Of a DNA stretch of 25,089 nucleotides, positions 3,172 through 23,690 are shown one piece after another. This stretch comes from a virus. The translations under genes were made by a program, and so were the position numbers. The notes beneath the pieces were generated by a model that was not told the origin of the DNA, did not search any database, and saw only the letters and a list, made by a program, of their open reading frames with translations. The stretch lies in IMG/VR virus record IMGVR_UViG_3300002231_000541, positions 9,773 to 34,861 of that record; one strand, given 5' to 3'. Numbering within the stretch: position 1 is the first letter of the stretch; each line of letters starts with the position of its first letter.

Positions 3172-5871
3172 ATGGCTACTTTTGCCGATGGATTAGTCGC
3201 CTATTATCCGTGTGGCTCCCCCTATGACAAGTGGGACCGATTCGATGTGTCGTTCAATAATGTGACTCCCGACTTTCTGGGCCCTATTAGTAGAAGCTGG
3301 GAGTATGGAGGCACTACTTCAACCGCCACTCTCCCTGTTGAAATTCCGAACTCAAGCGGTGTATATACCATATCTTTGTGGTTTCGGCAGCTAAGGCCAA
3401 ACTTCAGAACTGCCATTACTGATGCGGGTGGTGCCAATGATACACCCATTCGAATTAATGGTGTAGGAAATGATATCGGAGTCCGCCAAGGTGGAGTATT
3501 CTATGGCACTGGATATAATCCCTCTGGGTTCGTAGGATCTACTTCGTGGAATCACCTCGTCGTCACATCTGATGGGACGGGTAATGTAGAATTTTATATC
3601 AACGGTGCTCCGGTTGGTACCGCAGCAGCTCCAGCTCCCCTAACTAATAACTGGATAGCTATCGGAAACCAAGCTGCAGCAAACCGTTATTTCGCTGAAG
3701 CGCTTGCCGAAATTGCTTTCTGGGATCGTGCTCTGACTGCTTCTGAAGTTAACACAATATATGATACCAACGCTGCGAAGCAAACGCTTGAAAGATTGTT
3801 GGAGCCCCAATTTGCACTTCCGGGCAGCAAAAGAGATTCAGAGTGGATAAATATGAGCAGTAATGCTTTCCTTTATCATATGAATGATGTAGCCACCGGA
3901 AATAGTGCTTATGATGATTCTGGAAATGGATATACGGGAACTGGCTCAAATGTAACTAATATTTCTAGCCCTGTAAAATTACACAGTGGGTCATACGTTC
4001 CTCCTGGGACCATTTTTTCTTCTGCCTCTTATTTCAATGGTACTAACGCATATATTGATACGAATCGCACGCCTGGTGCAATGGGCATGGATGGGAATAA
4101 CTCTCGATCCATGGTTTTCTGGGCTTCTTCTTCGGCGTGGCTAAATGATAAAATATTATTCACTATGGGGCTCAATTCTAGTGGACAAGATTTTAGTTTA
4201 GTAACCAAAACCACAAATAGAATCAGTCTCAATACTTGGGGCGCTGATGCTTACTGGAATATTCCTTCTTCTCCTCTAGGGTGGAATCACTATGGTATCA
4301 CCTATGATAGCTCTTCTTATGCTGCCACATTTTATTTTAATGGGGCTCCTGTTGGTATTTGGTATTTTGGATCAGGGAGAAACACTTCAAATGCCAATAA
4401 CATGAGAATTGGCGGACCCAATTATCAATGGGATTACTTTACAGGCGCGATTCAAGAATTTGCAGCGTTTTCTGGCAGTGTCCTAACAGACGCCAACGTT
4501 CTATCCATATATAATAATCAAGTAGCCAACTTTCAACCTATTAGTGGATCCGCCACTCTTTCTAACCTATTTGTCTCACTTGTTCACGATGGCCCACCTA
4601 CGATTAACGTAGACTCCCTTTTTGCATCAGTAGTGCATGATGGGCCCGCTACTGTGAGTCTTGACTCTTTATTTGGGTCGGTGGTTCATGGAAAGGGCGC
4701 TTTTAACGTCCCTGATATTACCGGAAGTGTAGCACTCACAGCGTCTTTTGATGCAACCCCTCAAGGCTTACCTTCTGGCTCTACTGCGTATCAATGGAGT
4801 TGGGCTTCTGTTCCTACGGGAAGCTCAATTGCCAATGATCGCGAAAATCTACCCAACAGCGGAAGCACCTATCCAGTCTCCGGTAATAAACTGTTGTGGC
4901 ACTTTGACACACAGAATACAACCACCACACAAGTTGGATCAATTGGTTTGCGAGACACTTTTGGTGATGGGTGGCATGGAAATAACTTTATAACAGTTAA
5001 TGTCAATGGCGCACCAGCATTGACCAACATAACTTTAGGAGCAGGTAGTGGGCCTGAATGGTTTGATTTTACAGCCGCTGATGGCGATAGCGTTGAAGTA
5101 TTATACACGCCAGGATCTTTCCCTACAGAATGCTTTTATACTCTTAATAGTGGATCACAGGGAAGCGGAGTGGACTTTTATACATCACCCACCAATCCGA
5201 CTGTTCCTTATAACTTTACTGCCAGTGGCTTCCTAACCGCATCTTCTCTATCCACTCCAGACTCCAGTGGGCAAGGCAATACGGGAACAGTTTCTTCGGG
5301 ATCTACTCTTGTTACTTCTAAATATGTAGGCACTCATGCTTATTTCTTAGATGGCGTGAGCGGCAGCATTACCGGACCCAAGCCTTCAATTCTAGGTATA
5401 GATGGAGGCAATAGTCGCTCAATCTCTTTCTGGGCCTCTGCTTCAGCTTGGCAAGATTACGGCATTATATTCAGTATGGGAACAAACGCTACTAATCAAG
5501 ACTGGACCCTTACTCAAAATACTCCAAATAATTTAAGATTATCCAACTGGTCCGGCCCAAGTGATTTAATAGTGACAGCAGGATCCCTTGTTGGCTGGAA
5601 TCATTATTTTGCCATCTATGACTCATCTAATCTTACTGCGTATTTGTACCAAAATAATCAACTGCTAGGAACCAAGACGCAAGTACAAAACACCAGTGAC
5701 GCGAGCAACCTAACTATAGGTAAAGGTACGGCCGGCTGGCTTGCAGCGCCGAGATTTAGTGGATCTATCGATGAATTTGCGGTGTGGAATCGCGCGCTGT
5801 CTGAATGCGAAAGAAATACTATATACGGATTTCTACTAGACAGGATCCAATATCGCAGCTCAAGGAAGTAG
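3172..5871 (+). CDS. Giant multi-LamG tail/fibre-type protein with nested domains (899 aa before frame break)
   Basis: Three LamG/ConA-like modules are visible: residues ~5-200 (SWNHLVVTSDGTG, EIAFWDRALTASEV), ~230-450 (DDSGNGYTGTG, WNHYGITYDSS) and ~573-885 (DSSGQGNTGT, GWNHYFAIYDSS, DEFAVWNRALSECE). Residues 464-514 hold three 17-residue repeats of the type DSLFxSVVHDGPxTVxx. From ~516 an Ig/PKD-like domain starts (GSVALTASFDATPQG, AYQWSWASVP) and is interrupted by LamG3, which is itself interrupted at ~585-690 by a domain of the DTFGDGW...VNVNG type. The Ig-like domain resumes after a frame break near 5850 (see 5852-6343), so the intact product would be about 1057 residues. LamG modules usually bind carbohydrate, so a receptor-binding or virion-surface role is likely but inferred. 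The ATG lies three bases after the upstream stop. Confidence 0.75.
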   Translation: MATFADGLVAYYPCGSPYDKWDRFDVSFNNVTPDFLGPISRSWEYGGTTSTATLPVEIPNSSGVYTISLWFRQLRPNFRTAITDAGGANDTPIRINGVGNDIGVRQGGVFYGTGYNPSGFVGSTSWNHLVVTSDGTGNVEFYINGAPVGTAAAPAPLTNNWIAIGNQAAANRYFAEALAEIAFWDRALTASEVNTIYDTNAAKQTLERLLEPQFALPGSKRDSEWINMSSNAFLYHMNDVATGNSAYDDSGNGYTGTGSNVTNISSPVKLHSGSYVPPGTIFSSASYFNGTNAYIDTNRTPGAMGMDGNNSRSMVFWASSSAWLNDKILFTMGLNSSGQDFSLVTKTTNRISLNTWGADAYWNIPSSPLGWNHYGITYDSSSYAATFYFNGAPVGIWYFGSGRNTSNANNMRIGGPNYQWDYFTGAIQEFAAFSGSVLTDANVLSIYNNQVANFQPISGSATLSNLFVSLVHDGPPTINVDSLFASVVHDGPATVSLDSLFGSVVHGKGAFNVPDITGSVALTASFDATPQGLPSGSTAYQWSWASVPTGSSIANDRENLPNSGSTYPVSGNKLLWHFDTQNTTTTQVGSIGLRDTFGDGWHGNNFITVNVNGAPALTNITLGAGSGPEWFDFTAADGDSVEVLYTPGSFPTECFYTLNSGSQGSGVDFYTSPTNPTVPYNFTASGFLTASSLSTPDSSGQGNTGTVSSGSTLVTSKYVGTHAYFLDGVSGSITGPKPSILGIDGGNSRSISFWASASAWQDYGIIFSMGTNATNQDWTLTQNTPNNLRLSNWSGPSDLIVTAGSLVGWNHYFAIYDSSNLTAYLYQNNQLLGTKTQVQNTSDASNLTIGKGTAGWLAAPRFSGSIDEFAVWNRALSECERNTIYGFLLDRIQYRSSRK
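4561..4713 (+). repeat. Three tandem 51-base coding repeats (17 residues each)
   Basis: Within the giant LamG protein, residues 464-514 repeat a 17-residue unit three times: SNLFVSLVHDGPPTINV, DSLFASVVHDGPATVSL and DSLFGSVVHGKGAFNVP. The DNA copies have diverged, so this is an old protein repeat rather than a recent slippage. It sits as a linker between LamG2 and the Ig-like domain. Confidence 0.7.
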
Positions 5872-6392: not shown

Positions 6393-6635
6393 ATGGGTAA
6401 GAGATATAAAAGATTTATTTTACCAGCTCGGAAAAAAGCTGAAGCTGAAGCAAAAGAAAAGGCAGCCAAAAAGGCAGCCGATGCCAAGGCGCGCGCCGAA
6501 GCTGCACGAAAGGCAGAGGCGGAAGCCGAAAGGCGCCGCGCGGAGGAGAAAGCTCGTAAAGATGCTGAAGCTGAAGCTAAGCGCAAGTCCTCCTCTAAAT
6601 CCAACAACAAAAGATCTAAGAAAAAAGAGGAATAA
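6393..6635 (+). CDS. Lys/Ala/Glu-rich coiled-coil small protein (80 aa)
   Basis: A good AAGGAG lies about eight bases before ATG 6393. After the short start MGKRYKRFILPARKKAEAEA the protein is almost wholly Ala, Lys, Glu and Arg in heptad-like order, then a Ser/Lys tail (SSSKSNNKRSKKKEE). It is predicted to be one long charged helix or coiled coil, similar in composition to TolA linkers, and it could bind nucleic acid or act as an assembly rod. Composition alone does not define a family. The preceding gap (6344-6392) is A/T-rich and may hold a promoter, but no consensus was found. The next gene starts five bases after the stop. Confidence 0.6.
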   Translation: MGKRYKRFILPARKKAEAEAKEKAAKKAADAKARAEAARKAEAEAERRRAEEKARKDAEAEAKRKSSSKSNNKRSKKKEE

Positions 6636-6639
6636 CCAA

Positions 6640-6909
6640 ATGGACTTCAACAAGATGACTAGAGACTTTCTTCTAGGCGAGGCTCGTCAAACTACTTCGG
6701 GGATGTCTCGATTGCGGGCCATAAAAGAAGCCCTAGAGAGCTTAAAACCCAGAACCATAAAAGAAAGACAAAGAATTGAAATTGCTCACGAAAACTTGGC
6801 ACACATTCGACGAAGTTATCGAAAACTAGAAGAACAAAATAATGCGCTCCTAGAAGAAAATAATCACTTGACAGAAAAGTTGCAATTATTAGAAGAAGAA
6901 AAGGAATAA
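6640..6909 (+). CDS. Small coiled-coil phage protein (89 aa)
   Basis: ATG 6640 follows a GAGGA ribosome site in the tail of the preceding gene. The product begins MDFNKMTRDFLLGEARQ and continues with basic helices, then a leucine-zipper-like C-terminus with Leu, Asn and Glu at heptad spacing (YRKLEEQNNALLEENNH, LTEKLQLLEEE). It is likely to form a dimeric or oligomeric coiled coil. No family is recognised; position next to virion genes suggests a structural, scaffold or chaperone role. It is followed after four bases by the ligase-like fusion gene, so the two are probably co-translated. Confidence 0.6.
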   Translation: MDFNKMTRDFLLGEARQTTSGMSRLRAIKEALESLKPRTIKERQRIEIAHENLAHIRRSYRKLEEQNNALLEENNHLTEKLQLLEEEKE

Positions 6910-6913
6910 TAAG

Positions 6914-9250
6914 ATGGGTGGACTAGCTGGGCATATGAGTCATCTATATGACAACCCTCGCCTAACATTTTCAGAGATTAAGAGTATTCTCCAAGATGCT
7001 GCCGAAGGAAACCTAGAAGGGACCGAAAAAACGGACGGCCAGAATCTGTATATTTCTTTTTCTGTTCCTAAGCAGGAATTAGAGTTTGCTGATGGTGGTG
7101 CCAAGGCTGCTCGCAATAAAACTAACATTAAAGCTGGTGGTATGAACGCTCGACAGTTGGCGGACAAATTTTCGTTCAATAAAGCTTTAAAAGCCTCCTT
7201 TTCTCAAGCGCTTCGGAACTTTGGCGATGTAGTCAAGTCCTTCCCGCGAGATAAGCAAATAGAAATATTTGGCCCAGACACCAATATATATTACAACGCC
7301 GAGATCATCAATCCAGATACGGCGAATGTTATCAATTATGATTCTAAACTTGTATCCATCCACCGAGGCGGTGGGGCCGAATTTGATAAAGAAACTGGCG
7401 CGCCAGTACAAGTTGAAATCACTGACCCCGAGACTGGCGAAGTAATCACTGGTCCAAAAGATGTCTCTAGGCACGCACAAATGCTTTCTGATGTTTTAGA
7501 CGACGTGCAACAAGACTTATCCAACAATAAATTTAAAATTGAAATGGATGCTATTTTTAATCTCAAGGCTCTTGAAGATAAGACTGCTTTACAGAATGCA
7601 CTCAATACAATAGAATCTCAACTTTCAAGCGAAGGGATTTCCGACAGCCAAATGGTGATCGAATATATCATGGCTCGTATTCTCTCCATCCTACAGGAAG
7701 AAGGTTTGAGTCTAGATGAGGAAACTGAAAAACTAATCTTGAAAAGAATTCTTTTATCCAACCCCTCTTATCGATCTGCGTATGGGTATGATAAGATGCC
7801 TAAAGAACTTGATCCTCGTACTATTTTAAAAAACGCAAGTGCAAAAGATAAAAATAGAGTAATTTATCTTCTTAAAAACTCTAAAGAGATTTTAGCGAAA
7901 GCCATCGAACCTATTGAGGAAGCTATTCATGACTTTTCGGTGGAGATGCTCCGAGGCTTAGAAAGTCTATTTATCCTAGATAATAAGAAAGAAACTGAAA
8001 GGTTGAAGGGAGAAGTATCCAAAGCTATCGCAGCTATTGAAGCTTCAGGCCATGAGGGCGCCCTTGAGATCTTACAGAAGCAAATGAACAAGCTCAAAAG
8101 TGTGGAAAATGTCTCTACTGCTGCTGAAGGTTTTGTATTTGACCACGATGGATGGTCATACAAGTTTACAGGAAACTTTGCACCCATTAATCAAATTCTG
8201 GGGCTTTTTAAGTATGGCAGAGCAGGCATTCCTCCTTTGGAAAAAATAAACGAAGAAGTAAAAGCTGATGACAAGTATGTGGTTCTCATTCCTGGAGGCT
8301 TTAAGCCTCCTCACAAGGGACATTACGCACTACTAGAAAACTATGCTAAGATGCCCAGCGTCGAGGCTGTAGTCGTTTTCACCGGACACAAGCCTCGCGA
8401 GGGAGTCACTCGGGAAATGTCAGAACAATTATTTGAGTTATACGGAGGCCTCTCTGATAAAGTTATGTTCATAGAAGACAGCAAACCTATGGGCGCGGCC
8501 TTTGAAAAACTTGGCGAACAAGATTTTGTAAACCAATTTAGCCAGGACGCAGTATTCACCCTGGGGTGTGGAGATAAAGGAAAAGACGCGGCAAGAGCTA
8601 TAATGTTTGAAGAATGGTGGAATAAAAATGAAGACAAAAACCTCCTTAATGTCAGGGTCGGAAATATTGGCGCCTGTCCGGCTCAAATTTCAGATACTGG
8701 CTCTCCTCTATCCGCATCTATGATGAGAAAAGCTGCAAGAGAGGGGGATGATACAACCCTAGAAGCCCACATTCCTCAAGGAGTTGACGTTGGCTCCGTT
8801 AAGCGAATCTTACCTTCATCATTGGCTGAAATGATTTTTGATATTATTGAAGAAGTTACATCAGAAAAGCAAAGAAAGTGGGCATGTGCACAGATTGATG
8901 ACCCGGATGAACTTACGCGAAAGCAAGCCAAAGAGTTTTGTTCCGCTGATCTAGAAGAATATAGAACCATCAATTATAGTATGGGTGAACCCCCTAAGAA
9001 GTCACCAAAAAAGAAAAAGACATATAATGAACCAGGAGTTCATAGTGATTACAGACCCGATAAAAAAGAGGCACCTTCGAGAGAAGAGAGAGAAGATGAG
9101 TTCGACCCTCTTGAGGAGTTGTCTGCCATGAGTGCAGGAGCCGTTTCCGGACCTGGGTCTAAAAACAAAGATGAAGAAGAAGAGACCTTGATTAGAGAAT
9201 ATATCCGAGGCATCAAAATTAAAACGAAGATAAGAACAAAAGCAAACTAA
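6914..9250 (+). CDS. Fusion of ligase-like covalent nucleotidyltransferase and HxGH nucleotidyltransferase (778 aa)
   Basis: AAGGA precedes ATG 6914. Residues 39-42 read KTDG inside EKTDGQNLYISF, matching motif I (KxDG, lysine nucleophile) of ATP/NAD-dependent ligases and capping enzymes. YYNAEIINPD (~126-135) resembles motif III, EGFVF (405-409) motif IV and YKF (416-418) motif V. The gap between motifs I and IV is unusually long and holds a helical insertion (~185-395). A second module (~455-640) has the PGGFKPPHKGHYALL signature, with HKGH at 467-470, and LSASMMRKA (599-607), like the HxGH and ISSTxxR motifs of NMNAT/cytidylyltransferase enzymes. The C-terminus has a KQRKWACAQ helix, a charged Pro/Lys linker and LIREYIRGIKIK. 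Likely activity: nucleotidyl transfer by both modules; the true substrates (RNA or DNA end, NMN, sugar or other phosphate) are unknown. Confidence 0.7.
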   Translation: MGGLAGHMSHLYDNPRLTFSEIKSILQDAAEGNLEGTEKTDGQNLYISFSVPKQELEFADGGAKAARNKTNIKAGGMNARQLADKFSFNKALKASFSQALRNFGDVVKSFPRDKQIEIFGPDTNIYYNAEIINPDTANVINYDSKLVSIHRGGGAEFDKETGAPVQVEITDPETGEVITGPKDVSRHAQMLSDVLDDVQQDLSNNKFKIEMDAIFNLKALEDKTALQNALNTIESQLSSEGISDSQMVIEYIMARILSILQEEGLSLDEETEKLILKRILLSNPSYRSAYGYDKMPKELDPRTILKNASAKDKNRVIYLLKNSKEILAKAIEPIEEAIHDFSVEMLRGLESLFILDNKKETERLKGEVSKAIAAIEASGHEGALEILQKQMNKLKSVENVSTAAEGFVFDHDGWSYKFTGNFAPINQILGLFKYGRAGIPPLEKINEEVKADDKYVVLIPGGFKPPHKGHYALLENYAKMPSVEAVVVFTGHKPREGVTREMSEQLFELYGGLSDKVMFIEDSKPMGAAFEKLGEQDFVNQFSQDAVFTLGCGDKGKDAARAIMFEEWWNKNEDKNLLNVRVGNIGACPAQISDTGSPLSASMMRKAAREGDDTTLEAHIPQGVDVGSVKRILPSSLAEMIFDIIEEVTSEKQRKWACAQIDDPDELTRKQAKEFCSADLEEYRTINYSMGEPPKKSPKKKKTYNEPGVHSDYRPDKKEAPSREEREDEFDPLEELSAMSAGAVSGPGSKNKDEEEETLIREYIRGIKIKTKIRTKAN

Positions 9251-12336: not shown

Positions 12337-12414
12337 GCCTTCGTAGCTCAACAGGATAGAGCAATCGGCCTTCTAAGCCGAGGGTTGCGCGTTCGAGTCG
12401 TGCCGAGGGTGCCA
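12337..12414 (+). tRNA. tRNA-Arg (anticodon TCT), CCA encoded
   Basis: A complete cloverleaf can be drawn: acceptor GCCTTCG/CGAGGGT (with two G-U pairs), D stem GCTC/GAGC, anticodon stem TCGGC/GCCGA around loop CTTCTAA with anticodon TCT, variable GGGTT and T stem GCGCG/CGTGC with loop TTCGAGT. It ends in G-CCA. It reads AGA (and AGG) codons, which are common in the genes of this window, in line with the usual role of phage tRNAs in matching codon demand. It has one extra base between D stem and anticodon stem (AA). It is directly followed by the ribosome site of the ClpP-like gene. Confidence 0.92.
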
Positions 12415-12429
12415 CATTAAGGAGAAAAA

Positions 12430-13041
12430 ATGAAAGATATCTATTGGGCCTCTATCCCCACAACAATTTGCGGTGGAGAGCTGGATAATACAAAATATGA
12501 TGACAATAACCGTGTAGAGACAAAACATAATAAAGTATATTTTTATTCTGAAGTTTCACGAGGTAAAAACCTCCAATTAAATTTGGCAATCAGACAGCTT
12601 GAGGCCGATCTTTTGCATGGGGCAAATATTACCGGAGGGGATCCCCGCTCTATCTTTTTACACATCAATTCCTATGGAGGATCAGTTTTTGCTGGATTTT
12701 CTTCTGTAGATTATATTACAAGCTGCAAAGTACCGGTAACTTCGGTTATTGATGGCTGTGCAGCTTCAGCAGCAACGATTATGAGCGTCACAGCCAACCA
12801 TAGACAGATGAATAAGCATGCCTATATGCTTATTCACCAACTTTCTTCGGGAATGTGGGGCAAGTATCATGCTATGCAAGATAAGATGGAAAATTGTGAT
12901 CGATTTATGAAAATGATTATCGATATTTATGAAGAGCATACTAAAATTCCTAAAAAAGAGTTGAGCAAAATTCTCAAGCACGATCTTTGGTGGGATGCAG
13001 ATACATGCCTGAAATACGGCTTAATTGATGAAATTATTTAA
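12430..13041 (+). CDS. clpP: ClpP-like serine protease (203 aa)
   Basis: AAGGAG sits seven bases before ATG 12430. The protein has the ClpP/crotonase fold signatures: HINSYGGSVFAGF (~78-90, oxyanion strand), DGCAASAATIM with the catalytic Ser at 113, MLIHQLSSG with catalytic His 136, and HDLWWDADTCLKYGLIDEI with candidate Asp 185. The length matches ClpP (about 200). An N-terminal extension of ~35 residues (GGELDNTKYDDNN) is unlike the cellular enzyme. Phage ClpP homologues are known from marine T4-like phages; they may work with host ClpX/A or as head-maturation-type proteases. Its gene is in a unit with tRNA-Arg; the 3' end overlaps a small membrane protein gene. Confidence 0.88.
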   Translation: MKDIYWASIPTTICGGELDNTKYDDNNRVETKHNKVYFYSEVSRGKNLQLNLAIRQLEADLLHGANITGGDPRSIFLHINSYGGSVFAGFSSVDYITSCKVPVTSVIDGCAASAATIMSVTANHRQMNKHAYMLIHQLSSGMWGKYHAMQDKMENCDRFMKMIIDIYEEHTKIPKKELSKILKHDLWWDADTCLKYGLIDEII

Positions 13042-13204
13042 AAAATTTATAAAATCATACCTTGCTTTTGGTTTGGGAGTCGTCTTCGGAGCCTCTATAT
13101 CAACCATTGTGACTTATTCTATTATGATGTTCGCTTATGGAGCACCAGATGCAGTGAAGGTATTACAAATTAGACAATGTTTAGAGGAGAAAATAAATGA
13201 GTAA
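13028..13204 (+). CDS. Small single-pass membrane protein (58 aa)
   Basis: ATG 13028 overlaps the end of the ClpP-like gene and the frame runs to TAA 13202-13204, overlapping the next gene by eight bases. A basic start (MKLFKKFIKSY) is followed by one hydrophobic helix (about residues 12-38, LAFGLGVVFGASISTIVTYS) and a short polar tail ending IRQCLEEKINE. The shape is that of a membrane-anchored small phage protein (holin-, spanin- or exclusion-type), but no family is recognised. There is no strong ribosome site, so coupling with clpP translation is likely. Confidence 0.55.
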   Translation: MKLFKKFIKSYLAFGLGVVFGASISTIVTYSIMMFAYGAPDAVKVLQIRQCLEEKINE

Positions 13205-13631
13205 AACGATCATGGTATCTGGAGGCTTTGACCCTATTCACGTAGGACATATCCGAATGATTATAGAAGCCGGCCAATATGGAGATGTCATCGTAGTTGC
13301 CAATTCTGATGAATGGTTGTATCGCAAAAAAGGATATGTATTTATGGGATTCAATGAAAGAAAAGAAATTTTAATGGCCCTCAAGGGGGTTGTAGAAGTT
13401 GTGCCAGTTGATGATGAAGACGGCACCGTCTGTGAAGCTCTTCGCCGCGAACGTCCTGATTATTTTGCAAATGGGGGCGATAGAACCACCCAAAATACTC
13501 CCGAACAGGCTGTATGTGAAGAGTTAGGAATTCAAATGCTGTGGAACATGGGCGGCCAAAAAATCCAATCATCTTCAGATCTTGTGCGAACATCTAGAGA
13601 CACTGCACTAGAGATAGGAGATACAGAATGA
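13197..13631 (+). CDS. RfaE/HldE-type sugar-phosphate nucleotidyltransferase (144 aa)
   Basis: AGAGGAG lies ahead of ATG 13197. The protein is one complete cytidylyltransferase-like domain: GGFDPIHVGH (residues 9-18; HxGH catalytic signature), VVANSDEWLYRKKG, FMGFNERKEILMAL, YFANGGDR and SSSDLVR near the C-terminus (equivalent to ISSTxxR). The length and order match the C-terminal domain of HldE/RfaE, which adenylylates heptose-1-phosphate for LPS, and also TagD-type glycerol-phosphate enzymes. The KGGD-type motif (here NGGD) favours the RfaE side. It probably activates a sugar or polyol phosphate in the cytoplasm and may feed the glycan genes downstream; the substrate is not determined by sequence alone. 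Confidence 0.82.
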   Translation: MSKTIMVSGGFDPIHVGHIRMIIEAGQYGDVIVVANSDEWLYRKKGYVFMGFNERKEILMALKGVVEVVPVDDEDGTVCEALRRERPDYFANGGDRTTQNTPEQAVCEELGIQMLWNMGGQKIQSSSDLVRTSRDTALEIGDTE

Positions 13632-14328: not shown

Positions 14329-15672
14329 ATGTCTGATAGAATTTATATTATAGACACTAGTGTTTGCTTGACAGATTCGGACTGCATATATCATTATGGG
14401 AGTGATAATATTATCATCCCCATGAAAGTCCTCGAAGAAATCGACAAACATAAAAAAAGGCAAGATTCTGTTGGATCTAATGCTCGCAGTATCATTAGAG
14501 AATTTGATTTATTGCGCGAAAAAGGAAGCCTCCAAGATGGCGTTTCTCTGGGTGATGAAAAGGGTACCTTGTATGTTTCACGCGTACCCTTAACAGAAGT
14601 CCCAGCTGATTTAAATAAGAGTGATCCGGATCATATCATCATGACCGCAGCTCTTATGCAGAAAGAGCAAAATCCCGATAAGGATGTGCGCCTTGTGTCT
14701 CGCGATATTAATATGCGAGTTATGACAGATTCCCTAGGAATTGAATCAGAGGATTATGTCGAGAACCAAATTATCCAAGTCCAATCTGATTTGTATACGG
14801 GATACGAACGACTGATGGTAAGTGATTGGGATATTGACGAGTTGTACGAGAAAGGAAGCATTTCTCTGGAGAGCTTGGGCATTGACCGCACCGACGACGC
14901 AATAGAAGAGAATCAATCTATTATGATTTATTCGGAAGTGAATGAGAAGCGAACAGCCCTCTGTCGCCACAAACAAGGCTTCCTACGCAAGACTATTGAT
15001 TTGAATAAGAGGGGAGTGTGGGGAGTAAAACCGCGCAATAAAGAGCAAGTTTTTGCTTTCGATCTCCTTATGGATCCCAAAATTTCTCTAGTATCTCTCG
15101 TTGGACGCGCCGGCTCTGGTAAGACCTTGATGGCTATCGCTGCAGGGATTTCTCAAACAATACATGACCCATTTAAGCCGAGCGATGAACCTATTTATAA
15201 CAGACTTGTAATCTCCAGACCTATTCAGCCTATGGGCAAAGATATTGGATATTTACCGGGCACACTAGAAGAAAAAATGCATCCATGGCTGAAACCTATT
15301 CAAGATAATCTGCAGTATATTCTTGGAAATGACAAAGCTACTTTAGAAGAATACATGGAAAAAGGTATCATAGAAGTAGAAGCCCTCACATATATCCGAG
15401 GCCGATCCATAGCAAATGCGTACATTATCATTGATGAAGCTCAAAATTTAACTGTTCATGAGATAAAGACCATTTTAACCCGAGTTGGAGATAATACTAA
15501 AATTATTTTAACCGGAGATATTGAGCAGATAGACAACATTTATGTGGATGAAACCTCAAACGGCTTAGTTCACACAGTAGAGAAATTTAAAGAACACGAT
15601 ATAGCAGGCCATATAACTCTCCTAAAAGGAGAAAGGTCAAGATTAGCTACACTCGCATCAGATATATTATAA
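14329..15672 (+). CDS. phoH: PIN-PhoH fusion ATPase/ribonuclease (PhoH2-like, 447 aa)
   Basis: The N-terminal PIN domain (~1-145) has the acidic nuclease residues D9 (IIDTSV), E37, D101 and D126 (SRDINMR). The PhoH ATPase follows after a linker: Walker A GRAGSGKT (259-266), SRPIQPMGKDIGYLPG (~296-311), Walker B AYIIIDEAQNL (364-373) and LTGDIEQID sensor motif (~395-402). The order and length match PhoH2 proteins, which couple RNA unwinding with PIN RNase activity. PhoH is one of the most frequent auxiliary genes in marine phages, often linked to phosphate stress or RNA metabolism. No ribosome site precedes ATG 14329, so leaderless or coupled translation is possible. A promoter follows the stop by nine bases. 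Confidence 0.92.
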   Translation: MSDRIYIIDTSVCLTDSDCIYHYGSDNIIIPMKVLEEIDKHKKRQDSVGSNARSIIREFDLLREKGSLQDGVSLGDEKGTLYVSRVPLTEVPADLNKSDPDHIIMTAALMQKEQNPDKDVRLVSRDINMRVMTDSLGIESEDYVENQIIQVQSDLYTGYERLMVSDWDIDELYEKGSISLESLGIDRTDDAIEENQSIMIYSEVNEKRTALCRHKQGFLRKTIDLNKRGVWGVKPRNKEQVFAFDLLMDPKISLVSLVGRAGSGKTLMAIAAGISQTIHDPFKPSDEPIYNRLVISRPIQPMGKDIGYLPGTLEEKMHPWLKPIQDNLQYILGNDKATLEEYMEKGIIEVEALTYIRGRSIANAYIIIDEAQNLTVHEIKTILTRVGDNTKIILTGDIEQIDNIYVDETSNGLVHTVEKFKEHDIAGHITLLKGERSRLATLASDIL

Positions 15673-17021: not shown

Positions 17022-17795
17022 GTGCCACATATATCATTTTCCGAATTAAAAAACTGGAACTTCTGCCCAAATTATCATAAACTGACTTATATCGATAAGT
17101 TAAAGGGCTTTACCGGAAATGCCTATACGGCGTTCGGTACAGCAATTCACAATGTTTGTGAAAAGAAACTCTTACGAGAAAATATCGAAGAAGAGAAATA
17201 TTGGATTGAAAATTTCGAAAAATGTCTCGCCGAGCTAGATGAAGAAGTTTTGGCGGAAACGAAAGACAAGATGCTCGAAGATATGGCAGTCCAGGGCGCA
17301 GAAATCATCCCAGAGATCACACCAGCATTGGAGCAGTATTTTCCCGATGGCTATGAAGTTCTCGCAACTGAAGAAATGCTGATGGAGCCCATTGCTGACG
17401 AAGAAAATTACAACTTCAAGGGATATATTGATGCAGTCATCAAAACACCGGATGGCAAAATTCACTTGATTGACTGGAAGAGTTGCTCGTGGGGTTGGGA
17501 TTCTCGCCGGAGAGCAGATCCAATGGTCACTTATCAACTAACATTTTATAAAATCTTTTATGCCAAAAAGCACTCTATTGATTTGAAGGATATTGAAACT
17601 CACTTTGCGCTATTAAAGCGTACTGCAAAAAAAGACAGAGTGGAAATCTTCAGAGTCACCAGTGGTGCCCGTAAACAAGAGAATGCAATGGGTCTGCTGA
17701 AAAAGGCCTTATATAATATTAAAGCTAAGAATTACATCAAGGACAAACGCTCGTGCGCAAAATGTGAGTTTTTCCGCACAGAACATTGTCCATAA
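17022..17795 (+). CDS. RecB/Cas4-type PD-(D/E)XK nuclease with Fe-S cysteines (257 aa)
   Basis: GTG 17022 has GAGGA at the right distance and begins exactly with the family pattern HISFSELKNWNFCPNYHK. Visible motifs: C15, GTAIHNVCE (39-47, with H43), GYIDAVI with D137, LIDWKS with D151 and K153, and YQLTFYK with Q172. The C-terminal C245-AK-C248 and C256 together with C15 make the four-Cys iron-sulphur cluster set typical of AddB/Cas4-type exonucleases. It is likely to be a DNA exonuclease in phage replication or recombination, or in host DNA breakdown. It stands alone in a mostly glycan-related stretch and shares a transcript with it. Confidence 0.85.
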   Translation: MPHISFSELKNWNFCPNYHKLTYIDKLKGFTGNAYTAFGTAIHNVCEKKLLRENIEEEKYWIENFEKCLAELDEEVLAETKDKMLEDMAVQGAEIIPEITPALEQYFPDGYEVLATEEMLMEPIADEENYNFKGYIDAVIKTPDGKIHLIDWKSCSWGWDSRRRADPMVTYQLTFYKIFYAKKHSIDLKDIETHFALLKRTAKKDRVEIFRVTSGARKQENAMGLLKKALYNIKAKNYIKDKRSCAKCEFFRTEHCP

Positions 17796-17805
17796 AGGAA
17801 GGAAT

Positions 17806-18897
17806 ATGACAGAGAAAAAGAAAATAGTGGTGATCTCTGATCACCCATTGGCTCCTTCGGGAGTCGGTACTCAAACAAAATACATAATTGAAACGCTTCT
17901 TAAGACGGGTCGTTATAAGTTTGTTTGCCTAGGCGGAGCCGTTAAACATCGCGACTACAAGCCACAACACATCGACCCTTATGGTGAAGATTTTGTAGTA
18001 TATCCTGTTGACGGCTATGGAAATCCAGAGATGGTCCGCTCTGCTTTATTTAACGAGAGACCTGACATGATTTGGTTCATGACCGATCCTCGTTTTTATG
18101 GGTGGTTATGGGCTATTGAAAATGAGATCCGCCCCCATATTCCAATGGTATATTATCATGTGTGGGATAATTATCCATACCCGCACTACAATAAGGTTAA
18201 CTACGAGTCGACAGATGTCATTGCTTCAATTTCCAAAGTGACTTATGATATTGTTAACGTGGTAGCTCCAAATGTAGAAAATCACTACGTCCCTCACGCA
18301 GTAGATACAGCTATTTTTCAACCCATTTCGGAAGACGCCATTAAATCAATCAAAGAACAGTTATTCGGCCCAGGTGATCAACGCGTTACTTTTTTCTGGA
18401 ATAACAGAAATGCCCGCCGAAAAATGACTGGATCCCTCATTCACTGGTTTAATGAATTTGCAGAAAGCGTGGGCCCTGATAATGTCCGACTCATAATGCA
18501 TACCGATCCTAAAGATCCTAACGGGCAAGACATCGATGCGATTATTAAAGATTTGAAGGCGGACGACGGCCGATTTTTGATTTCGGTAGATAAAGTCTCC
18601 CCAGACCGTCTCGCACTTTTTTATCAAGCAGCAGATTGTACTGTCAATATTTCGGACGCAGAGGGCTTTGGTTTGGCGACTCTAGAATCTTTGTCTTGCG
18701 GAACGCCTATTATCGTAAATATGACCGGAGGGCTTCAGGAGCAAGTGACTGATGGCAAAGATTTCTTTGGAATCGGGATCGAGCCTGCTTCCAAAGCAAT
18801 CATCGGATCCCAACAGGTACCCTATATTTATGAAGATCGTATTTCTAAAGAAGATTTTTACGGCAGCCTTAACAAAAATTTACAAAATGACCCCTGA
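17806..18897 (+). CDS. GT4-family glycosyltransferase, main part (frame broken near the 3' end)
   Basis: AAAGGAAGG precedes ATG 17806. The N-terminal Rossmann lobe (MTEKKKIVVISDHPLAPSGV, GVGTQT loop) and the C-terminal lobe with TFFWNNRNARRK and SDAEGFGLATLESLSCGTP (the E-x7-E donor-binding motif) define a GT-B retaining glycosyltransferase of family 4. The donor would be a nucleotide sugar. The frame ends in SLNKNLQNDP at 18897, but a one-base shift at a run of five T (18855-18859) restores a sensible end (TAALTKIYKMTPDERK...) that runs to 19066, so the intact protein would be about 420 residues. It is the first gene of the glycan operon. Confidence 0.82.
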   Translation: MTEKKKIVVISDHPLAPSGVGTQTKYIIETLLKTGRYKFVCLGGAVKHRDYKPQHIDPYGEDFVVYPVDGYGNPEMVRSALFNERPDMIWFMTDPRFYGWLWAIENEIRPHIPMVYYHVWDNYPYPHYNKVNYESTDVIASISKVTYDIVNVVAPNVENHYVPHAVDTAIFQPISEDAIKSIKEQLFGPGDQRVTFFWNNRNARRKMTGSLIHWFNEFAESVGPDNVRLIMHTDPKDPNGQDIDAIIKDLKADDGRFLISVDKVSPDRLALFYQAADCTVNISDAEGFGLATLESLSCGTPIIVNMTGGLQEQVTDGKDFFGIGIEPASKAIIGSQQVPYIYEDRISKEDFYGSLNKNLQNDP

Positions 18898-19066
18898 TGA
18901 GCGAAAGTTATTGGGAATTAAGGGGCGCCAACACGTAGCCGTTAATTATAGCTTTGATAAATTCAAGAAAACATGGATTAATTTAGTGGATTCTATCGTA
19001 GAAAATCACGGCTCGTGGGAAAATAGAAAAAATTATAAATCTTGGGATTTAAGGGAGATTAAATGA
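18860..19066 (+). CDS. C-terminal end of the GT4 glycosyltransferase (second frame)
   Basis: Read in the next frame from 18860, this gives TAALTKIYKMTPDERKLLG followed by IKGRQHVAVNYSFDKF and an end at ...WDLREIK, the usual C-terminal helices of GT4 enzymes (MTPDER..., Y-S-F-D-K-F). It is not an independent gene: there is no ribosome site, and its protein is the missing end of the preceding frame. The TGA overlaps the next ATG as ATGA, as elsewhere in this operon, supporting 19066 as the true end of the enzyme. Confidence 0.65.
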   Translation, partial: TAALTKIYKMTPDERKLLGIKGRQHVAVNYSFDKFKKTWINLVDSIVENHGSWENRKNYKSWDLREIK

Positions 19067-21093
19067 AACAAAAGATAGTAGTAAAAGGTCCTGTCCTTAC
19101 ACAAAGTGGATACGGAGAGCAGGCACGGTTTGCCCTGCGGGCCCTTCGATCCGTAGAAGATGTATTTGATATTTATATCATTCCTACCGCCTGGGGCCAA
19201 ACAGGTTGGATTAGCGTTGATAACGAAGAGCGATCTTGGATCGACCAATGTATCACAAAGACTCACTTGCATGCTCAAGGAGGTGGAGTATTTGATATTT
19301 CATTGCAGGTAACTATTCCCAATGAATGGGAGCCATTAGCTCCCGTTAATGTTGGTTATACTGCGGGCATTGAAACAACTAAAGTTTCCCCCATTTGGGT
19401 ACAGAAGGCCAATGAGATGGATAGAATCATTGTAGTCTCCAATCACTCCAAAGAAGTCTTTGAAAAAACCGTTTATCAAGGCACTCATCCACAAACCGCA
19501 GCGCCTGTTATTTTGTCGTGCAATACTCCCATTGAAGTAGTAAATTATCCCGTTCGATCTGCTCAAAAGAAATCTCTAAAGCTTAATTTGGATTATGATT
19601 TCAATTTCTTGGCCATTTCCCAGTGGGGCCCTCGCAAAAACTTCGACAATCTCATTAACTGGTTTATCGAGGAAAACTTCGACCAGGAAGTAGGGCTAGT
19701 TTTGAAGACCTCTATCAAGGGCAATAGTCGCACAGATCGCCACTATACTGAAGAAAAACTTAAGGAAATTGTGGCTCGCCACGGAGATATCAAATGTAAA
19801 GTATATCTTTTACATGGAGACTTGTCAGAATCTGAAATGACAGGCCTGTACAGCCATTCTAAAATAAAAGCACTCATTAGTACCACTCACGGCGAAGGAT
19901 ACGGCCTGCCCCTATTTGAAGCCGCCTACAATGGCCTTCCGGTTATTGCCCCCGGGTGGTCAGGCCAGCGAGACTTCCTCTACATACCAGATAAAAGAAG
20001 CCCAACAGGTAAGATGCGCCCCTTGTTCGCGACGGTTGAATATGAATTGAGGAATGTGCAGCCCCAAGCAGTGTGGGATGGAGTAATCCAGGCTGATTCC
20101 CAATGGGCGTTCCCGAAGGAGTCGAGCTTCAAAAAGAGGTTGAGGGAAGTCCGCACCAATTATCCGCGCTTTAAGAAAAACGCTAGAAAGCTTAAAAAGC
20201 ATCTATCACAAGAGTTTACCGAAGAAAAACTATACACACAGTTTACCGATTTTGTCGCACCAGGGCTTAACTCTATCGACGATATCGCCTCCCTCAAATC
20301 TTCCATTTTAGAAATTAAGGATATAAAAGAGAGAGTTTCTGCACTCACTGAAGCTGTCCGCAGCTTAAACTCTCAAGCCGAAAAGATTGAACTGCTTAAG
20401 GGTTCTTTAAGGGGGGAGACGTGCTATGTTCTATCTTGTGGACCTACCCTCACTGAACACGACGCGGAAAAGGTAAGATCTCTGTTAAGTGACAATGTGG
20501 TTATTGCAGTAAAGCAAGCATTTGATCTTTTCGCTGATTGTGTAGATTTTCATACATATAACTGCGCCAACTTTAAACAGTATGACTACTCCTCGCATCA
20601 TCCGATTGCTATTGAATCCTCCACTTCGCCAAGACCTCTTGGTACGTGTGATATTAAGTTTTTCATCCGAGAAAGAGATTTCAATAGGTCTGTCGCAGCC
20701 ACATCCCAGTTTGATCGTTGGACATATGAAAACTCTACCATTTTGCGCCCATATGGACCAGGAATCATGTATGAGTCGGTATTTTATTTAGCACAACACC
20801 TAGGAGTAGCTGAATTAATTACTATTGGATGGGACAATTCTCTCATCAAGGGCGGCGCCTCCAAACAACATTTTTATGATAAAGAGGGGTCGACGTGTAA
20901 TAAAGATGACTTTATTCATCAAAATGAGGTTGCTAACAACCCCAATGCTGTCGCAACCCTTGATCACGAGGCTTCAATTACCACCAACGCCATTTCAGAG
21001 TGGAATTCATGGCTATCCCAACATGGAGTGACGTTGAAAATTGTTTCTAAGATCAATCCAGCACCAGAAACCATCGAGAGGGTACAAATTTAA
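19063..21093 (+). CDS. GT4 glycosyltransferase fused to a Maf/DUF115 (GT42-like) domain (676 aa)
   Basis: GGGAG precedes ATG 19063. Residues ~1-390 are a GT-B enzyme: GPVLTQSGYGEQARFA, SQWGPRKNFDNL and STTHGEGYGLPLFEAAYNG (donor motif). A coiled linker (~405-445) leads to a second domain from ~450: ETCYVLSCGPTLTEHDAEKV, VDFHTYN, ILRPYGPGIMYESVFYLA and AELITIGWDNS. This pattern is that of DUF115/Maf (flagellin nonulosonic acid transferase) and GT42-type sialyltransferase-like proteins, where the Gly-Pro-Thr/Ser-Leu loop opens a Rossmann-like fold. The combination suggests a bifunctional enzyme adding two sugars, the second possibly the nonulosonic acid made by the neighbouring genes. The acceptor is unknown. 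Confidence 0.75.
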   Translation: MKQKIVVKGPVLTQSGYGEQARFALRALRSVEDVFDIYIIPTAWGQTGWISVDNEERSWIDQCITKTHLHAQGGGVFDISLQVTIPNEWEPLAPVNVGYTAGIETTKVSPIWVQKANEMDRIIVVSNHSKEVFEKTVYQGTHPQTAAPVILSCNTPIEVVNYPVRSAQKKSLKLNLDYDFNFLAISQWGPRKNFDNLINWFIEENFDQEVGLVLKTSIKGNSRTDRHYTEEKLKEIVARHGDIKCKVYLLHGDLSESEMTGLYSHSKIKALISTTHGEGYGLPLFEAAYNGLPVIAPGWSGQRDFLYIPDKRSPTGKMRPLFATVEYELRNVQPQAVWDGVIQADSQWAFPKESSFKKRLREVRTNYPRFKKNARKLKKHLSQEFTEEKLYTQFTDFVAPGLNSIDDIASLKSSILEIKDIKERVSALTEAVRSLNSQAEKIELLKGSLRGETCYVLSCGPTLTEHDAEKVRSLLSDNVVIAVKQAFDLFADCVDFHTYNCANFKQYDYSSHHPIAIESSTSPRPLGTCDIKFFIRERDFNRSVAATSQFDRWTYENSTILRPYGPGIMYESVFYLAQHLGVAELITIGWDNSLIKGGASKQHFYDKEGSTCNKDDFIHQNEVANNPNAVATLDHEASITTNAISEWNSWLSQHGVTLKIVSKINPAPETIERVQI

Positions 21094-21941
21094 TGAAATA
21101 CTTTATTACAGGAGGGACCGGATCCCTTGGAAAAGCACTGATTAAAAGAATCTTGAGAAATAAGAAGAATAAGGTAGTTGTGTACAGCCGAGATGAAGGT
21201 AAGCAAGCAAATATCTTCAGGAACACTAATCGAGTTAAGTGTGTAATTGGTGATATTCGAGATTTTCAAAAACTCGATACCACCATGCGAATTCATAAGC
21301 CGGATTTTGTAATACACACAGCGGCTCTTAAAAGGGTGGATGATATGGAATTTCACCCCGATGAGTGTATGAAGACGAATGTGTATGGTAGTGAAAACGT
21401 AGCAATCGCTTCTCTTAACCATGGTGTGAAAAAATGTATACTCATTTCAACTGACAAAGCTTGTCAGCCTGTGAATGTTTATGGCTCCTCCAAATTCATT
21501 GCAGAAAGAATTTTCACTAACTATGACTATAACTCCAACTCTACTGTATTTGCTTCCGTGCGCTATGGGAACGTCATTGCATCGCGCGGGTCTTTTATTC
21601 CACTGTGGATTGGGCAAATTGCAGAAAAGGGAGAAATTACAGTAACTTCCCGAGAATGTAGTCGATTTTTATTCACTCTCGATGATGCAGTCGACACGGT
21701 ACTCAACGCCCTCAAAAATGCAGAAGGTGGAGAAGTTTTTATTCCAAAAATTAAATCCTTTTCTATGGACACTATTATCGGCGCTGTAAAGAAAATGACG
21801 GGAGAGCAAGAATTTGCAGTGAAAAATATAGGGATGCGCCCAGGAGAAAAGCTCCATGAAGATATGCTTTCAAAAACAGAACTTCCATTTACTCGACAAG
21901 TGAGCAATAAACTTTTAGCAGTATTCGCCCCAGTATACTAA
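21093..21941 (+). CDS. PseB-like UDP-GlcNAc 4,6-dehydratase (SDR; 3' end damaged)
   Basis: ATG 21093 shares its A with the upstream TAA. The extended-SDR features are TGGTGSLGKAL (NAD(P) binding), TAALKRVDDME, STDKACQPVNVYGSSK with the Tyr-x3-Lys pair, and RPGEKLHEDML, the signature of the PseB/FlaA1/CapD group. These dehydratases act on UDP-HexNAc to give 4-keto-6-deoxy sugars, the first step of pseudaminic- or legionaminic-type pathways. The frame ends early at 21941 (SNKLLAVFAPVY); downstream bases encode the typical C-terminus GKEFNSSLHLSENVADLV in another frame to a stop at 22066, so the last ~40 residues are displaced by indels. Confidence 0.82.
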   Translation: MKYFITGGTGSLGKALIKRILRNKKNKVVVYSRDEGKQANIFRNTNRVKCVIGDIRDFQKLDTTMRIHKPDFVIHTAALKRVDDMEFHPDECMKTNVYGSENVAIASLNHGVKKCILISTDKACQPVNVYGSSKFIAERIFTNYDYNSNSTVFASVRYGNVIASRGSFIPLWIGQIAEKGEITVTSRECSRFLFTLDDAVDTVLNALKNAEGGEVFIPKIKSFSMDTIIGAVKKMTGEQEFAVKNIGMRPGEKLHEDMLSKTELPFTRQVSNKLLAVFAPVY

Positions 21942-22066
21942 ATAAACTCCCATACGCATAAACAAAAAATATATTAGGAAAAGAATTTAACTCATCTTTA
22001 CACTTGAGTGAGAATGTCGCCGACTTGGTTTCGCTTATTCTTCGAGGCTTAGAAAATGCCAGCTGA
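21942..22066 (+). pseudogene. Displaced C-terminus of the PseB-like dehydratase
   Basis: Frame with codons ending at TGA 22064-22066 reads NILGKEFNSSLHLSENVADL and VSLILRGLENAS, the expected terminal helix of PseB/CapD-type enzymes, while the annotated frame stops at 21941. A further frame fits part of the gap (QYTK, then TPIRINKKYI), so more than one base change is needed to join all pieces. Either the sequence has several errors here or the gene has truly decayed. The end overlaps the next gene's ATG by eleven bases, as is normal in this operon. Confidence 0.6.
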
Positions 22067-22668
22067 TAACAAAACAGGAACAATTTTGGTCGGGCCCTCA
22101 AGGTAAGAGTTATCTCAAGAGGAATTTTACCCACCCAACCCGCCAGAAAGAGCGTAAGGTTTTTTATGATATGTTTCTGCCACTTGACAGAGATGCACAT
22201 ATTTTAGAGGTAGGGTGCAACTGTGGGATAAATTTGCAAATCCTACAAGATATGGGATTTACAAACTTGTCTGGTATCGATATAGGTGAGGATGCCCTAA
22301 GTGAAGCTAAAAAAAGATTGCCAAACGCAAACTTTACTTTAGGCAGTATACTGGATATGCCCTATAGTGATAACTCTTATGATGTTGTTTTTTCTTCTGG
22401 TGTACTCATCCACCAAGACCCCGCTAATAGTTTAAACGTGGTAATATCTGAAATGATACGATGCGCCAAGAAATATATTTTGGGCCTAGAAGATTATAAC
22501 CAATCGTTTATGGATGGCGGATACAGAGGATCCACGGGATTCTACTGGCGAGGCCCGTTCTTGGAGACATTTCTGGCATCGTCAAGCAATCTCCATAAAG
22601 AACAAGAAGAATATATGGCTGTCAACACCAATTATAAGAGACAGTGCTATAGGATAAGTCTAGCATGA
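22056..22668 (+). CDS. SAM-dependent methyltransferase, class I (frame broken near the 5' end)
   Basis: The true start is probably ATG 22056 (GAGGC ahead); it reads MPADNKT and then needs a one-base shift at the GG at 22077-22078 to continue as EQFWSGPQGKSYLKRNF into the frame that is open to 22668. Without the shift only the part from ATG 22171 can be read. The core has the SAM-binding motif ILEVGCNCGINLQIL, acidic IDIGEDALSEAKKRL, and LDMPYSDNSYDVVFSSGVL, of Methyltransf_11/25 type. EQFWSGPQGK-type starts are seen in methyltransferases of glycan clusters. It probably methylates a sugar or glycan. The stop overlaps the next ATG. Confidence 0.72.
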
Positions 22669-23690
22669 AAATATTTAAAACAAACCTGCACGACAAGGAT
22701 GTTCAAATAATATCCAGAGTTTTAACTTCTGGAGAGTTGGGCTTCGGCCCAAATGTGTCTTTATTTGAGAGAGAATTTGCATCTTTTTCTCAAAAGAAAT
22801 ATAATGTTGCCACGAACAGCGCTTCTGCTTCTGCTTTTATGATTTTTTCTTTTCTCAAAGATATATATGGAGAGTGCGATGTTTATACCACGTCGCTAGG
22901 TTTTACCTCTCCTGCCTGGGCAGCTAAACATTTTGGTCATAATTTAATTTTTGTCGATGTTGACGACGAACTCCAATTTAGCGTAAAGGATTACAAAAAA
23001 CAAAGACAAGCCAGGTGCGAGAGATATACTGATGGCGGTATCACACCAGTGGTTATGCCCGTTTTATATGGCGGAGTTAGCAATATTGATGGTTTTGACT
23101 CTTTTTTTGATAATAGTAGCTATGAGGAAATCGTTGTAGTTGATGCTGCTCATTGTGTTACTCCTACAATTAAATCGGATTTTGTGTTCTTCTCTTTCCA
23201 TCCCTATAAGCCTATTTGCACGTCGGATGGTGGAATGATTTCGACAAATAATCCACGCGCTAATGACTATTTCCGATCTTATAGGAATTTTGGACGCGAA
23301 CCAAGTGGGCACTCATATGACATCAAGCAGACAGGTTTTAAGTTTTATATGAATAACTTAAACGCTACAATAGGGCTGACGCAGATTGATAGGTACGAAG
23401 ATAACTTAAGTATTCGTAAGAAAAACTATGACCGTTTGTTGGACGACTTTGGAGGTTGCCTGATGCCCCATGACAATAAATCTTCATTTTATTTCGCTAC
23501 AACCTTGACAATCGGAGCAGAGGATGTTATAATAAATAATAACTTAGCACGCCATTATCCAATGCTTCACATGACTTCATATTTTCGCAATGGGCAACAA
23601 CTGCCCAATTTGGAACTGCTCCACGGCGCCATCTTAAATTTACCCTTGTGGACAGAAGCGGACCTTAAACTTACAGAGAGAAATAAATGA
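22665..23690 (+). CDS. DegT/DnrJ/EryC1-family PLP aminotransferase (341 aa)
   Basis: ATG 22665 overlaps the upstream TGA. The family features are in order: LTSGELGFGPNVSLFEREFA at the start, NSASASAF (PLP phosphate loop), TTSLGFTSPAWA, VVDAAHC (Asp to the PLP ring nitrogen) and FSFHPYKPICTSDGGM with the PLP-binding Lys, then RNFGREPSGH and GFKFYMNNLNATIG. Members transaminate 4-keto sugars made by PseB/LegB-like dehydratases; this fits the enzyme upstream (PseC-like step). The C-terminus is somewhat shorter than usual (about 370-400 in many homologues). The stop overlaps the next ATG. Confidence 0.87.
   Translation: MKIFKTNLHDKDVQIISRVLTSGELGFGPNVSLFEREFASFSQKKYNVATNSASASAFMIFSFLKDIYGECDVYTTSLGFTSPAWAAKHFGHNLIFVDVDDELQFSVKDYKKQRQARCERYTDGGITPVVMPVLYGGVSNIDGFDSFFDNSSYEEIVVVDAAHCVTPTIKSDFVFFSFHPYKPICTSDGGMISTNNPRANDYFRSYRNFGREPSGHSYDIKQTGFKFYMNNLNATIGLTQIDRYEDNLSIRKKNYDRLLDDFGGCLMPHDNKSSFYFATTLTIGAEDVIINNNLARHYPMLHMTSYFRNGQQLPNLELLHGAILNLPLWTEADLKLTERNK

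Follow-up and report, generated by a model that had tools for sequence, protein, structure and literature searches.

A large family of T4-like phages known from environmental samples encodes a fused protein. By its motifs and modeled fold, we read the first half as a divergent representative of the covalent nucleotidyltransferases that falls outside every named ligase family; the second half is a predicted adenylyltransferase of the HIGH superfamily. With middling confidence, we propose that the protein is a cargo enzyme of a T4-like phage that is packaged in the head, ejected from it, and combines ligase-type and adenylyltransferase activities for the repair or modification of nucleic acid ends.

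Phage polynucleotide ligases are generally regarded as made during infection. If this protein is carried in the head, a ligase-type enzyme would be at work on nucleic acid of the host or the phage as soon as infection begins, which is when defenses such as host anticodon nucleases strike, and the family may thus serve nucleic acid repair or modification early in infection. Its size adds to its interest: at least 590 matching stretches are present in viral contigs, and the ligase half is unnamed by Pfam. There is also an apparent kinship to DUF6267, a family that is annotated only as unknown across hundreds of cyanophage records and for which no function has been described. Our searches of a literature library for this fusion, for DUF6267, and for Microcystis phage Mel-JY01 turned up no description.

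RESULTS

The source phage and the gene neighborhood

The window analyzed here is a 25,089-nucleotide stretch corresponding to bases 9773-34861 of a linear, 119,951-base viral contig (G000). The same contig encodes a T4-type terminase, a portal protein (PF07230), a prohead protease (PF03420 match, E 8.6e-32), a major capsid protein (PF07068 match, E 3e-73), and a contractile tail sheath, and we therefore assign the source to a T4-like myovirus. The terminase, portal, gp21 protease, and gp23 genes lie at 83-95 kb of the contig and the tail sheath gene at about 113 kb. An earlier sequence-only reading of the window had placed the gene of interest in a late block, which is consistent with this context. 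The open reading frame encodes 778 amino acids, and its features are collected in Table 1.

Table 1. Features of the fused protein and its immediate neighbors, in window coordinates
Feature	Position	Strand	Basis
Whole protein, 778 aa: ligase-like domain, HIGH adenylyltransferase domain, and basic/acidic tail	6914-9250	+	ORF list of the window; AlphaFold models
Conserved Gly2-Gly3; predicted N-terminus after Met removal here, (L/I)xE before Gly-Gly in relatives	6917-6922	+	Alignment of relatives
Predicted ligase-like covalent nucleotidyltransferase domain, residues 1-434	6914-8215	+	AlphaFold pLDDT 93.5, pTM 0.90; Foldseek top PDB matches T4 Rnl1 and Pnkp ligase
Motif I, E38-K39-T-D41-G42-Q43-N44, with the predicted nucleotidyl-accepting lysine	7025-7045	+	K, D, G in 99/99; in register with T4 Rnl2 REKIHGTN (E 0.018)
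Motif Ia, R67-N68	7112-7117	+	R in 99/99, N in 97/99
Motif III, Glu130	7301-7303	+	Glu in 98/99, Asp in 1
Mostly helical insert of about 210 residues between motifs III and IV (185-395)	7466-8098	+	DSSP on the model
Motif IV, E405-G-F-V-F409	8126-8140	+	E, F in 99/99
Motif V, Y416-K417-F-T-G420	8159-8173	+	Y, K, G in 99/99
Predicted HIGH-superfamily adenylyltransferase domain, residues 446-650	8249-8863	+	AlphaFold pLDDT 87; Foldseek CoaD/NadM/NadD, E 2e-5 to 1e-3; profile match to M. jannaschii NMNAT, E 3.4e-10
GGFKPPHKGH active-site motif, residues 461-470	8294-8323	+	Conservation in relatives
LSASMMRKA, second HIGH-superfamily motif, with R605	8708-8734	+	Motif script; conservation
C-terminal tail LEELSAMSAGAVSG (SxMSAGxVxG)	9110-9151	+	Like motif follows the predicted capsid-protein maturation site LLRE↓SSSMSAGDVEG
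Upstream coiled-coil-like ORF, kept just 5' of the gene in 39 relatives	6481-6909	+	Neighborhood comparison
Acidic partner ORF, 293 aa	9269-10150	+	C-terminal extension of the ligase-adenylyltransferase in 25 relatives; separate gene directly after it in most of the rest

The partner ORF begins with repeated LRExIR-type helices, and this N-terminal repeat region ends in LLKE↓A (arrows mark predicted cleavage sites). It has no match in Pfam or PHROG, and our guess is that it might be a prohead-core adaptor. Further downstream, the window holds its single tRNA gene, a tRNA-Arg (TCT) at 12337-12414, and a ClpP-like protein (12430-13041) that matches head-maturation-protease PHROGs; a gp21-type protease is encoded by this phage as well. 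A separate small HIGH-type protein (13197-13631) resembles heptose 1-phosphate adenylyltransferase, and its homologs lie near the ligase in 13 relatives. A PIN domain fused to a PhoH ATPase (14329-15672) is kept near the ligase in 50 relatives. A gene cluster at 17764-24649 encodes a glycosyltransferase, a nucleotide-sugar epimerase, an aminotransferase, and a methyltransferase.

Conserved motifs of a predicted covalent nucleotidyltransferase

Homologs were collected from viral contigs by a search with the whole protein, which gave 37 loci, and by a search with a first-domain alignment, which gave the 590 or more stretches noted above, of which 80 were kept. Conservation was then counted in an alignment of 99 distinct first-domain copies. 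Lys39, Asp41, Gly42, Arg67, Phe119, Glu405, Phe409, Tyr416, Lys417, Gly420, Pro424, Asn426, and Gln427 are invariant in all 99 relatives, and conservation of this kind rules out a chance origin of the motifs. Together with Glu130, the invariant positions match ligase and capping-enzyme motifs I, Ia, III, IV, and V. The domain thus carries the elements that define lysyl-AMP nucleotidyltransferases, namely the KxDG lysine of motif I, the glutamates of motifs III and IV, and at least one motif V lysine. Motif V holds one lysine only in the 99 relatives (S/T-Y-K417-F/L), not the KxK pair of Rnl1 and Rnl2.

The sequence-only reading had named KTDG at residue 39, EGFVF at 405, YKF at 416, HKGH at 467, and LSASMMRKA at 599, and a script located every one of them there. 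Its central proposal, a ligase-like covalent nucleotidyltransferase joined to an HxGH-type adenylyltransferase, agrees with the motifs, with the predicted fold, and with the nearest solved structures, which are RNA ligases. It had staked this proposal beforehand on a ligase-related fold for residues 1-440 and on conservation of Lys39 and Glu405; neither contrary outcome arose, as the modeled fold has RNA ligases for its best, if weak, solved matches, and both residues are present in 99 of 99 copies.

Predicted fold and affinities of the ligase-like domain

Searches of Pfam, PHROGs, and PDB sequences with the ligase half yielded nothing useful, and a fold search was therefore needed. The AlphaFold model of residues 1-440, built with 82 sequences (pLDDT 93.5, pTM 0.90), leads from the strands of motifs I to III through the mostly helical insert to a hairpin that carries motifs IV and V, followed by one terminal helix. 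When the model was compared to PDB using Foldseek, the four best chains were T4 RNA ligase 1 (three entries) and the Clostridium thermocellum Pnkp ligase domain, all of them weak matches (E 0.017-0.31, with the best at E 0.017 and TM 0.19-0.21). In a viral library, the best named matches outside the protein's own family and its DUF6267-like relatives are likewise RNA ligases, from E 1.5e-3. The Pfam RNA_ligase family is matched weakly by two of 61 full-length relatives.

A profile comparison with T4 Rnl2 places motifs I and Ia in register (E 0.018), whereas the hhalign comparison with T4 Rnl1 gave essentially nothing; that with T4 DNA ligase gave no meaningful alignment. LigA features are absent from the window protein, which has no Pfam match to PF01653 and no Ia domain, just one long helix before motif I. 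The ligase-like domain ends about 15-20 residues past motif V, where several relatives terminate, and neither an all-helical C-terminal domain of the Rnl1 type nor another nucleic acid-binding or OB domain follows. Because the Rnl1 helical C-terminal domain, the KxK pair, and the LigA Ia domain are all lacking, we place the first half outside the named ligase families.

A HIGH-superfamily adenylyltransferase domain

The second half contains the (H/T)xGH and SxxxR motifs of the HIGH superfamily within a matching modeled fold. Among 86 sequences of this domain, Gly461, Pro465, and Pro525 are present in all 86, His470 in 85, Lys555 in 84, and Arg605 in 82. The sequence-only reading had called the domain NMNAT-type. 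Its assignment to the HIGH adenylyltransferases stands, but the narrower label is one candidate among others, with NadM/NadD and CoaD fold matches about equally close to the window domain. An NMN adenylyltransferase model is matched by 54 of 72 members, yet the window domain scores 16.4 bits against TIGR00482, which has a cut-off of 112 bits, and falls under the curated cut-offs of the families that it matches. By motifs and model, NMN is one of several possible substrates.

Distribution and linkage of the two domains

A HIGH domain is also present in 88 of 100 ligase ORFs, and the others are stand-alone (for example, L030, L099, L103-L105, and L107) or cut by contig ends. The ligase precedes the HIGH domain in most cases. 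The reverse order is found in a second clade, which includes phage Mel-JY01, and in the jumbo phage LR756508, whose protein (L047, 4480-7227) consists of a ParB-like domain, a HIGH domain, and a ligase domain. In another jumbo phage, LR756500 (L046), the two domains are encoded by adjoining genes. Similarly, cyanophage S-PM2 has DUF6267 (E 1.6e-111) and a cytidyltransferase domain in one chain (S-PM2d138; L130, 40486-42258), and many other cyanophages encode these as adjoining genes (e.g., Syn33_181/182). Because the pair is fused in both orders or adjacent, including the cyanophage pair, we conclude that the association is old and recurrent, though the ligase can stand alone.

Bacterial and archaeal genomes gave only seven matches, each in a metagenome-assembled genome and most of them on a short contig, and thus the family is essentially viral. 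One member resides in a 2.8-Mb WOR-3 metagenome-assembled chromosome (L147, CP070664.1 155933-165141) and is possibly from a prophage or a mis-binned phage.

Some relatives (L027, L028, L033, L036, L037, and L083) carry an unrecognized domain of about 300 residues between the ligase and HIGH domains, at about residues 430-745 of the ligase ORF. Its E..PIQDLIAF..SLKLL pattern suggested that it might be a nuclease. This reading (possibly PD-(D/E)xK), considered for the insert of L027, L033, L036, L037, and L083, was unsupported by PDB, PHROGs, or the genes near the cyanophage pair, and we set it aside.

A processing signal in relatives and a capsid-like tail motif

The alignment of first domains revealed a conserved start, with Gly2 in 95 and Gly3 in 94 of the 99 relatives. 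The residue ahead of Gly-Gly is the start Met in 43 of 90 cases and Glu in the other 47, and every Glu-preceded case has Leu, Ile, Met, or Val at P3 (position -3). Across 42 distinct upstream octamers, the frequency of Glu is 0.90 at -1 and 0-0.21 at the seven other positions, and that of Leu, Ile, Val, or Met is 0.98 at -3. On the tree, the Met and Glu states switch 9-13 times, and at least 3-5 of these changes fall on well-supported branches; one of the nearest relatives of the window group reads MMLLE↓GG. Other examples are IIAE↓GG ahead of the ligase domain of phage Mel-JY01 and LLLE↓GG in L008. In versions with the HIGH domain first, the two domains are separated by an (L/I)xE site. This (L/I)xE-before-Gly-Gly pattern in relatives is a new observation made here.

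In T4, the gp21 protease has the cleavage motif L/I-x-E and cuts capsid-targeting propeptides off internal head proteins (PMC9026906). A gene for a gp21-type protease (Peptidase_S77) was found in 10 of 10 genomes tested. Furthermore, LL(R/K)E↓(A/S/Q), mostly with Ala or Ser as the last residue, is retained in the capsid protein of this phage and in those of seven relatives, at the position that corresponds to the T4 gp23 cleavage site. The tail motif of the window protein (Table 1) recurs among the plus-strand ORFs of the contig in the major capsid protein only, right after the predicted cleavage site, and many relatives have a similar tail motif.

The window protein itself starts Met-Gly-Gly and is without a propeptide, and the (L/I)xE pattern belongs to its relatives. 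Since it begins MGG, N-terminal cleavage of this particular protein is not implied, and, since it has no propeptide of its own, the case for its packaging comes from the C-terminal motif and from the relatives. Judged from these sequence features, the protein is probably carried inside the phage head. The prohead-protease-like sites of relatives lend indirect support to a virion association, at which the sequence-only reading had hinted.

DISCUSSION

A proposed role and its alternatives

Our proposal of an ejected cargo enzyme builds on the two domains, their conserved catalytic residues and fold, the cleavage-motif pattern of relatives, and the presence of gp21, gp23, and gp20 homologs. From these we infer packaging, ejection, a chemistry with AMP as the nucleotide, and a nucleic acid substrate. 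The ligase half would load AMP onto Lys39 with the participation of Arg67, Glu130, Glu405, and Lys417, and the AMP would then be passed to a nucleic acid 5' end, sealing or marking that end. The HIGH half would act on a small phosphorylated molecule such as NMN or a phosphopantetheine-like compound. The protein would enter the prohead during head assembly, and in many relatives trimming by a gp21-type protease would leave Gly-Gly as the first residues of the ligase domain. The protein would then enter the cell with the DNA and act ahead of new phage protein synthesis, its most likely targets being damaged tRNA or RNA ends or nicked incoming DNA.

More tentatively, and with rather less confidence than we attach to the role itself, these proteins could represent an undescribed, widespread class of capsid-packaged nucleic acid ligases. 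Such ligases would be matured by the prohead protease to an obligatory Gly-Gly start (by cleavage in some phages and Met removal in others) and be delivered together with their own adenylyltransferase as a ready repair kit working ahead of phage gene expression, and cyanophage DUF6267 would belong to the same superfamily.

The protein might instead be an ordinary late repair enzyme that works inside the cell and is not packaged, with LxE↓GG and the tail motif arising from another cause, for example, a folding or assembly contact. The window protein and 43 of 90 relatives do start directly at MGG, and the S-PM2 DUF6267 pair sits among DNA-metabolism genes rather than head genes. However, the combination of Glu at -1 and an aliphatic residue at -3 turns up repeatedly in contexts unrelated to one another, one of them being the stretch that follows an upstream HIGH domain, and the matching protease is present in all ten genomes, so that we consider this explanation fairly unlikely. 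We give very little weight to a role like that of T4 gp63, in which a ligase-fold protein would aid tail-fiber attachment independently of ligation. The closest solved structure, that of T4 Rnl1, carries annotation both as an RNA ligase and as a tail-fiber attachment catalyst, and a laminin-G-repeat protein is encoded upstream in the window (3172-5871). Yet this fiber-like gene lies near the ligase in only three relatives, on which ground we rejected a functional link to it, and the catalytic residues are all invariant.

Two further explanations turn on which other enzymes the phages encode. The main role could be NAD+ repletion against host NADase defenses, with the HIGH domain acting as an NMN adenylyltransferase and the ligase-like half being auxiliary or NAD-using. 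Phage NMNAT-based NAD salvage is known, and every NadM phage surveyed also has NadV (PMC9503650). Many members match the NMN adenylyltransferase model, as described above, and the best PDB profile match is an NMNAT, but CoaD matches are equally good, ligase domains occur without a HIGH domain, and NadV was not found in ten related, possibly incomplete contigs. An NAD-salvage operon was rejected on this last point, and we judge NAD repletion improbable. A coupling of the two domains through an NAD or ATP cofactor, whether shared or, as the sequence-only reading had suggested, supplied by one to the other, is likewise not supported: stand-alone ligases exist, (L/I)xE sites separate the domains in NMNAT-first versions, and the ten contigs revealed neither NadV nor an NAD-dependent ligase. 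These contigs, which may be incomplete, also have no recognized RNA ligase and no recognized DNA ligase of either the NAD- or the ATP-dependent type, as would be expected if the protein were the DNA ligase of the phage itself, standing in for the usual enzyme during replication or closing nicks in packaged DNA. Against this, the nearest folds are RNA ligases and not DNA ligases, motif V is not followed by an OB domain, the motif I context EKxDGxN resembles Rnl2, and the phage may use the host ligase. A dedicated DNA ligase therefore seems to us a slim prospect. Because the ten contigs lack any other DNA or RNA ligase as well as NadV, a role for the proposed cargo enzyme at DNA nicks is conceivable and one in NAD salvage is weakened.

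Comparison with known systems

The window protein shares with T4 RNA ligase 1, Pnkp ligase, and RNA ligase 2 the motif order I, Ia, III, IV, V, and these enzymes provide its top structural matches. Unlike them, it has a large helical insert between motifs III and IV, YK in place of KxK, a fused adenylyltransferase, and no C-terminal domain past motif V. Its second domain has the GxFxPxHxGH and SxxxR motifs and the fold of NadM, NadD, and CoaD, but lies below the curated cut-offs of these families.

Polyvalent proteins (Iyer et al. 2017, PMC5512222) likewise bring together, in a single late phage protein, several enzymatic domains that are unrelated to one another, and have been proposed to be injected with the DNA, and one relative of the window protein has a ParB-like domain, as they do. 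A search of that paper turned up neither cytidylyltransferase nor NMN, and the passage on ligases that it gave concerns other proteins. A Pfam scan of the relatives found none of the polyvalent hub domains (metallopeptidase, ArdC-N, and others).

The internal head proteins of T4 with capsid-targeting propeptides (IPI-IPIII and Alt) resemble the present family in two respects: many relatives have a short N-terminal extension with (L/I)xE at its end, and a gp21-type protease is encoded alongside. The proteins described here differ in belonging to another family, with predicted ligase and adenylyltransferase activities.

The closest parallel is the DUF6267-cytidyltransferase pair of cyanophages. 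The window protein has no PF19782 match in a Pfam scan, its hhalign match to DUF6267 is weak (E 0.04), and the S-PM2 and Syn33 genes lie among DNA-metabolism genes. Nevertheless, the DUF6267 (PF19782) alignment carries KxDG, EG(F/Y/I)V, and KxVxR, and the HIGH domain is fused (S-PM2) or adjoining (Syn33_181/182). The hhalign match is in register from HMSHLYD of the window protein, the counterpart of the N-terminal HLEHxED (HLEHLED) of DUF6267, to the motif I lysine, and Foldseek relates the ligase-domain model to the S-PM2 protein (E 2e-5). On these sequence and model comparisons, the family appears related to DUF6267.
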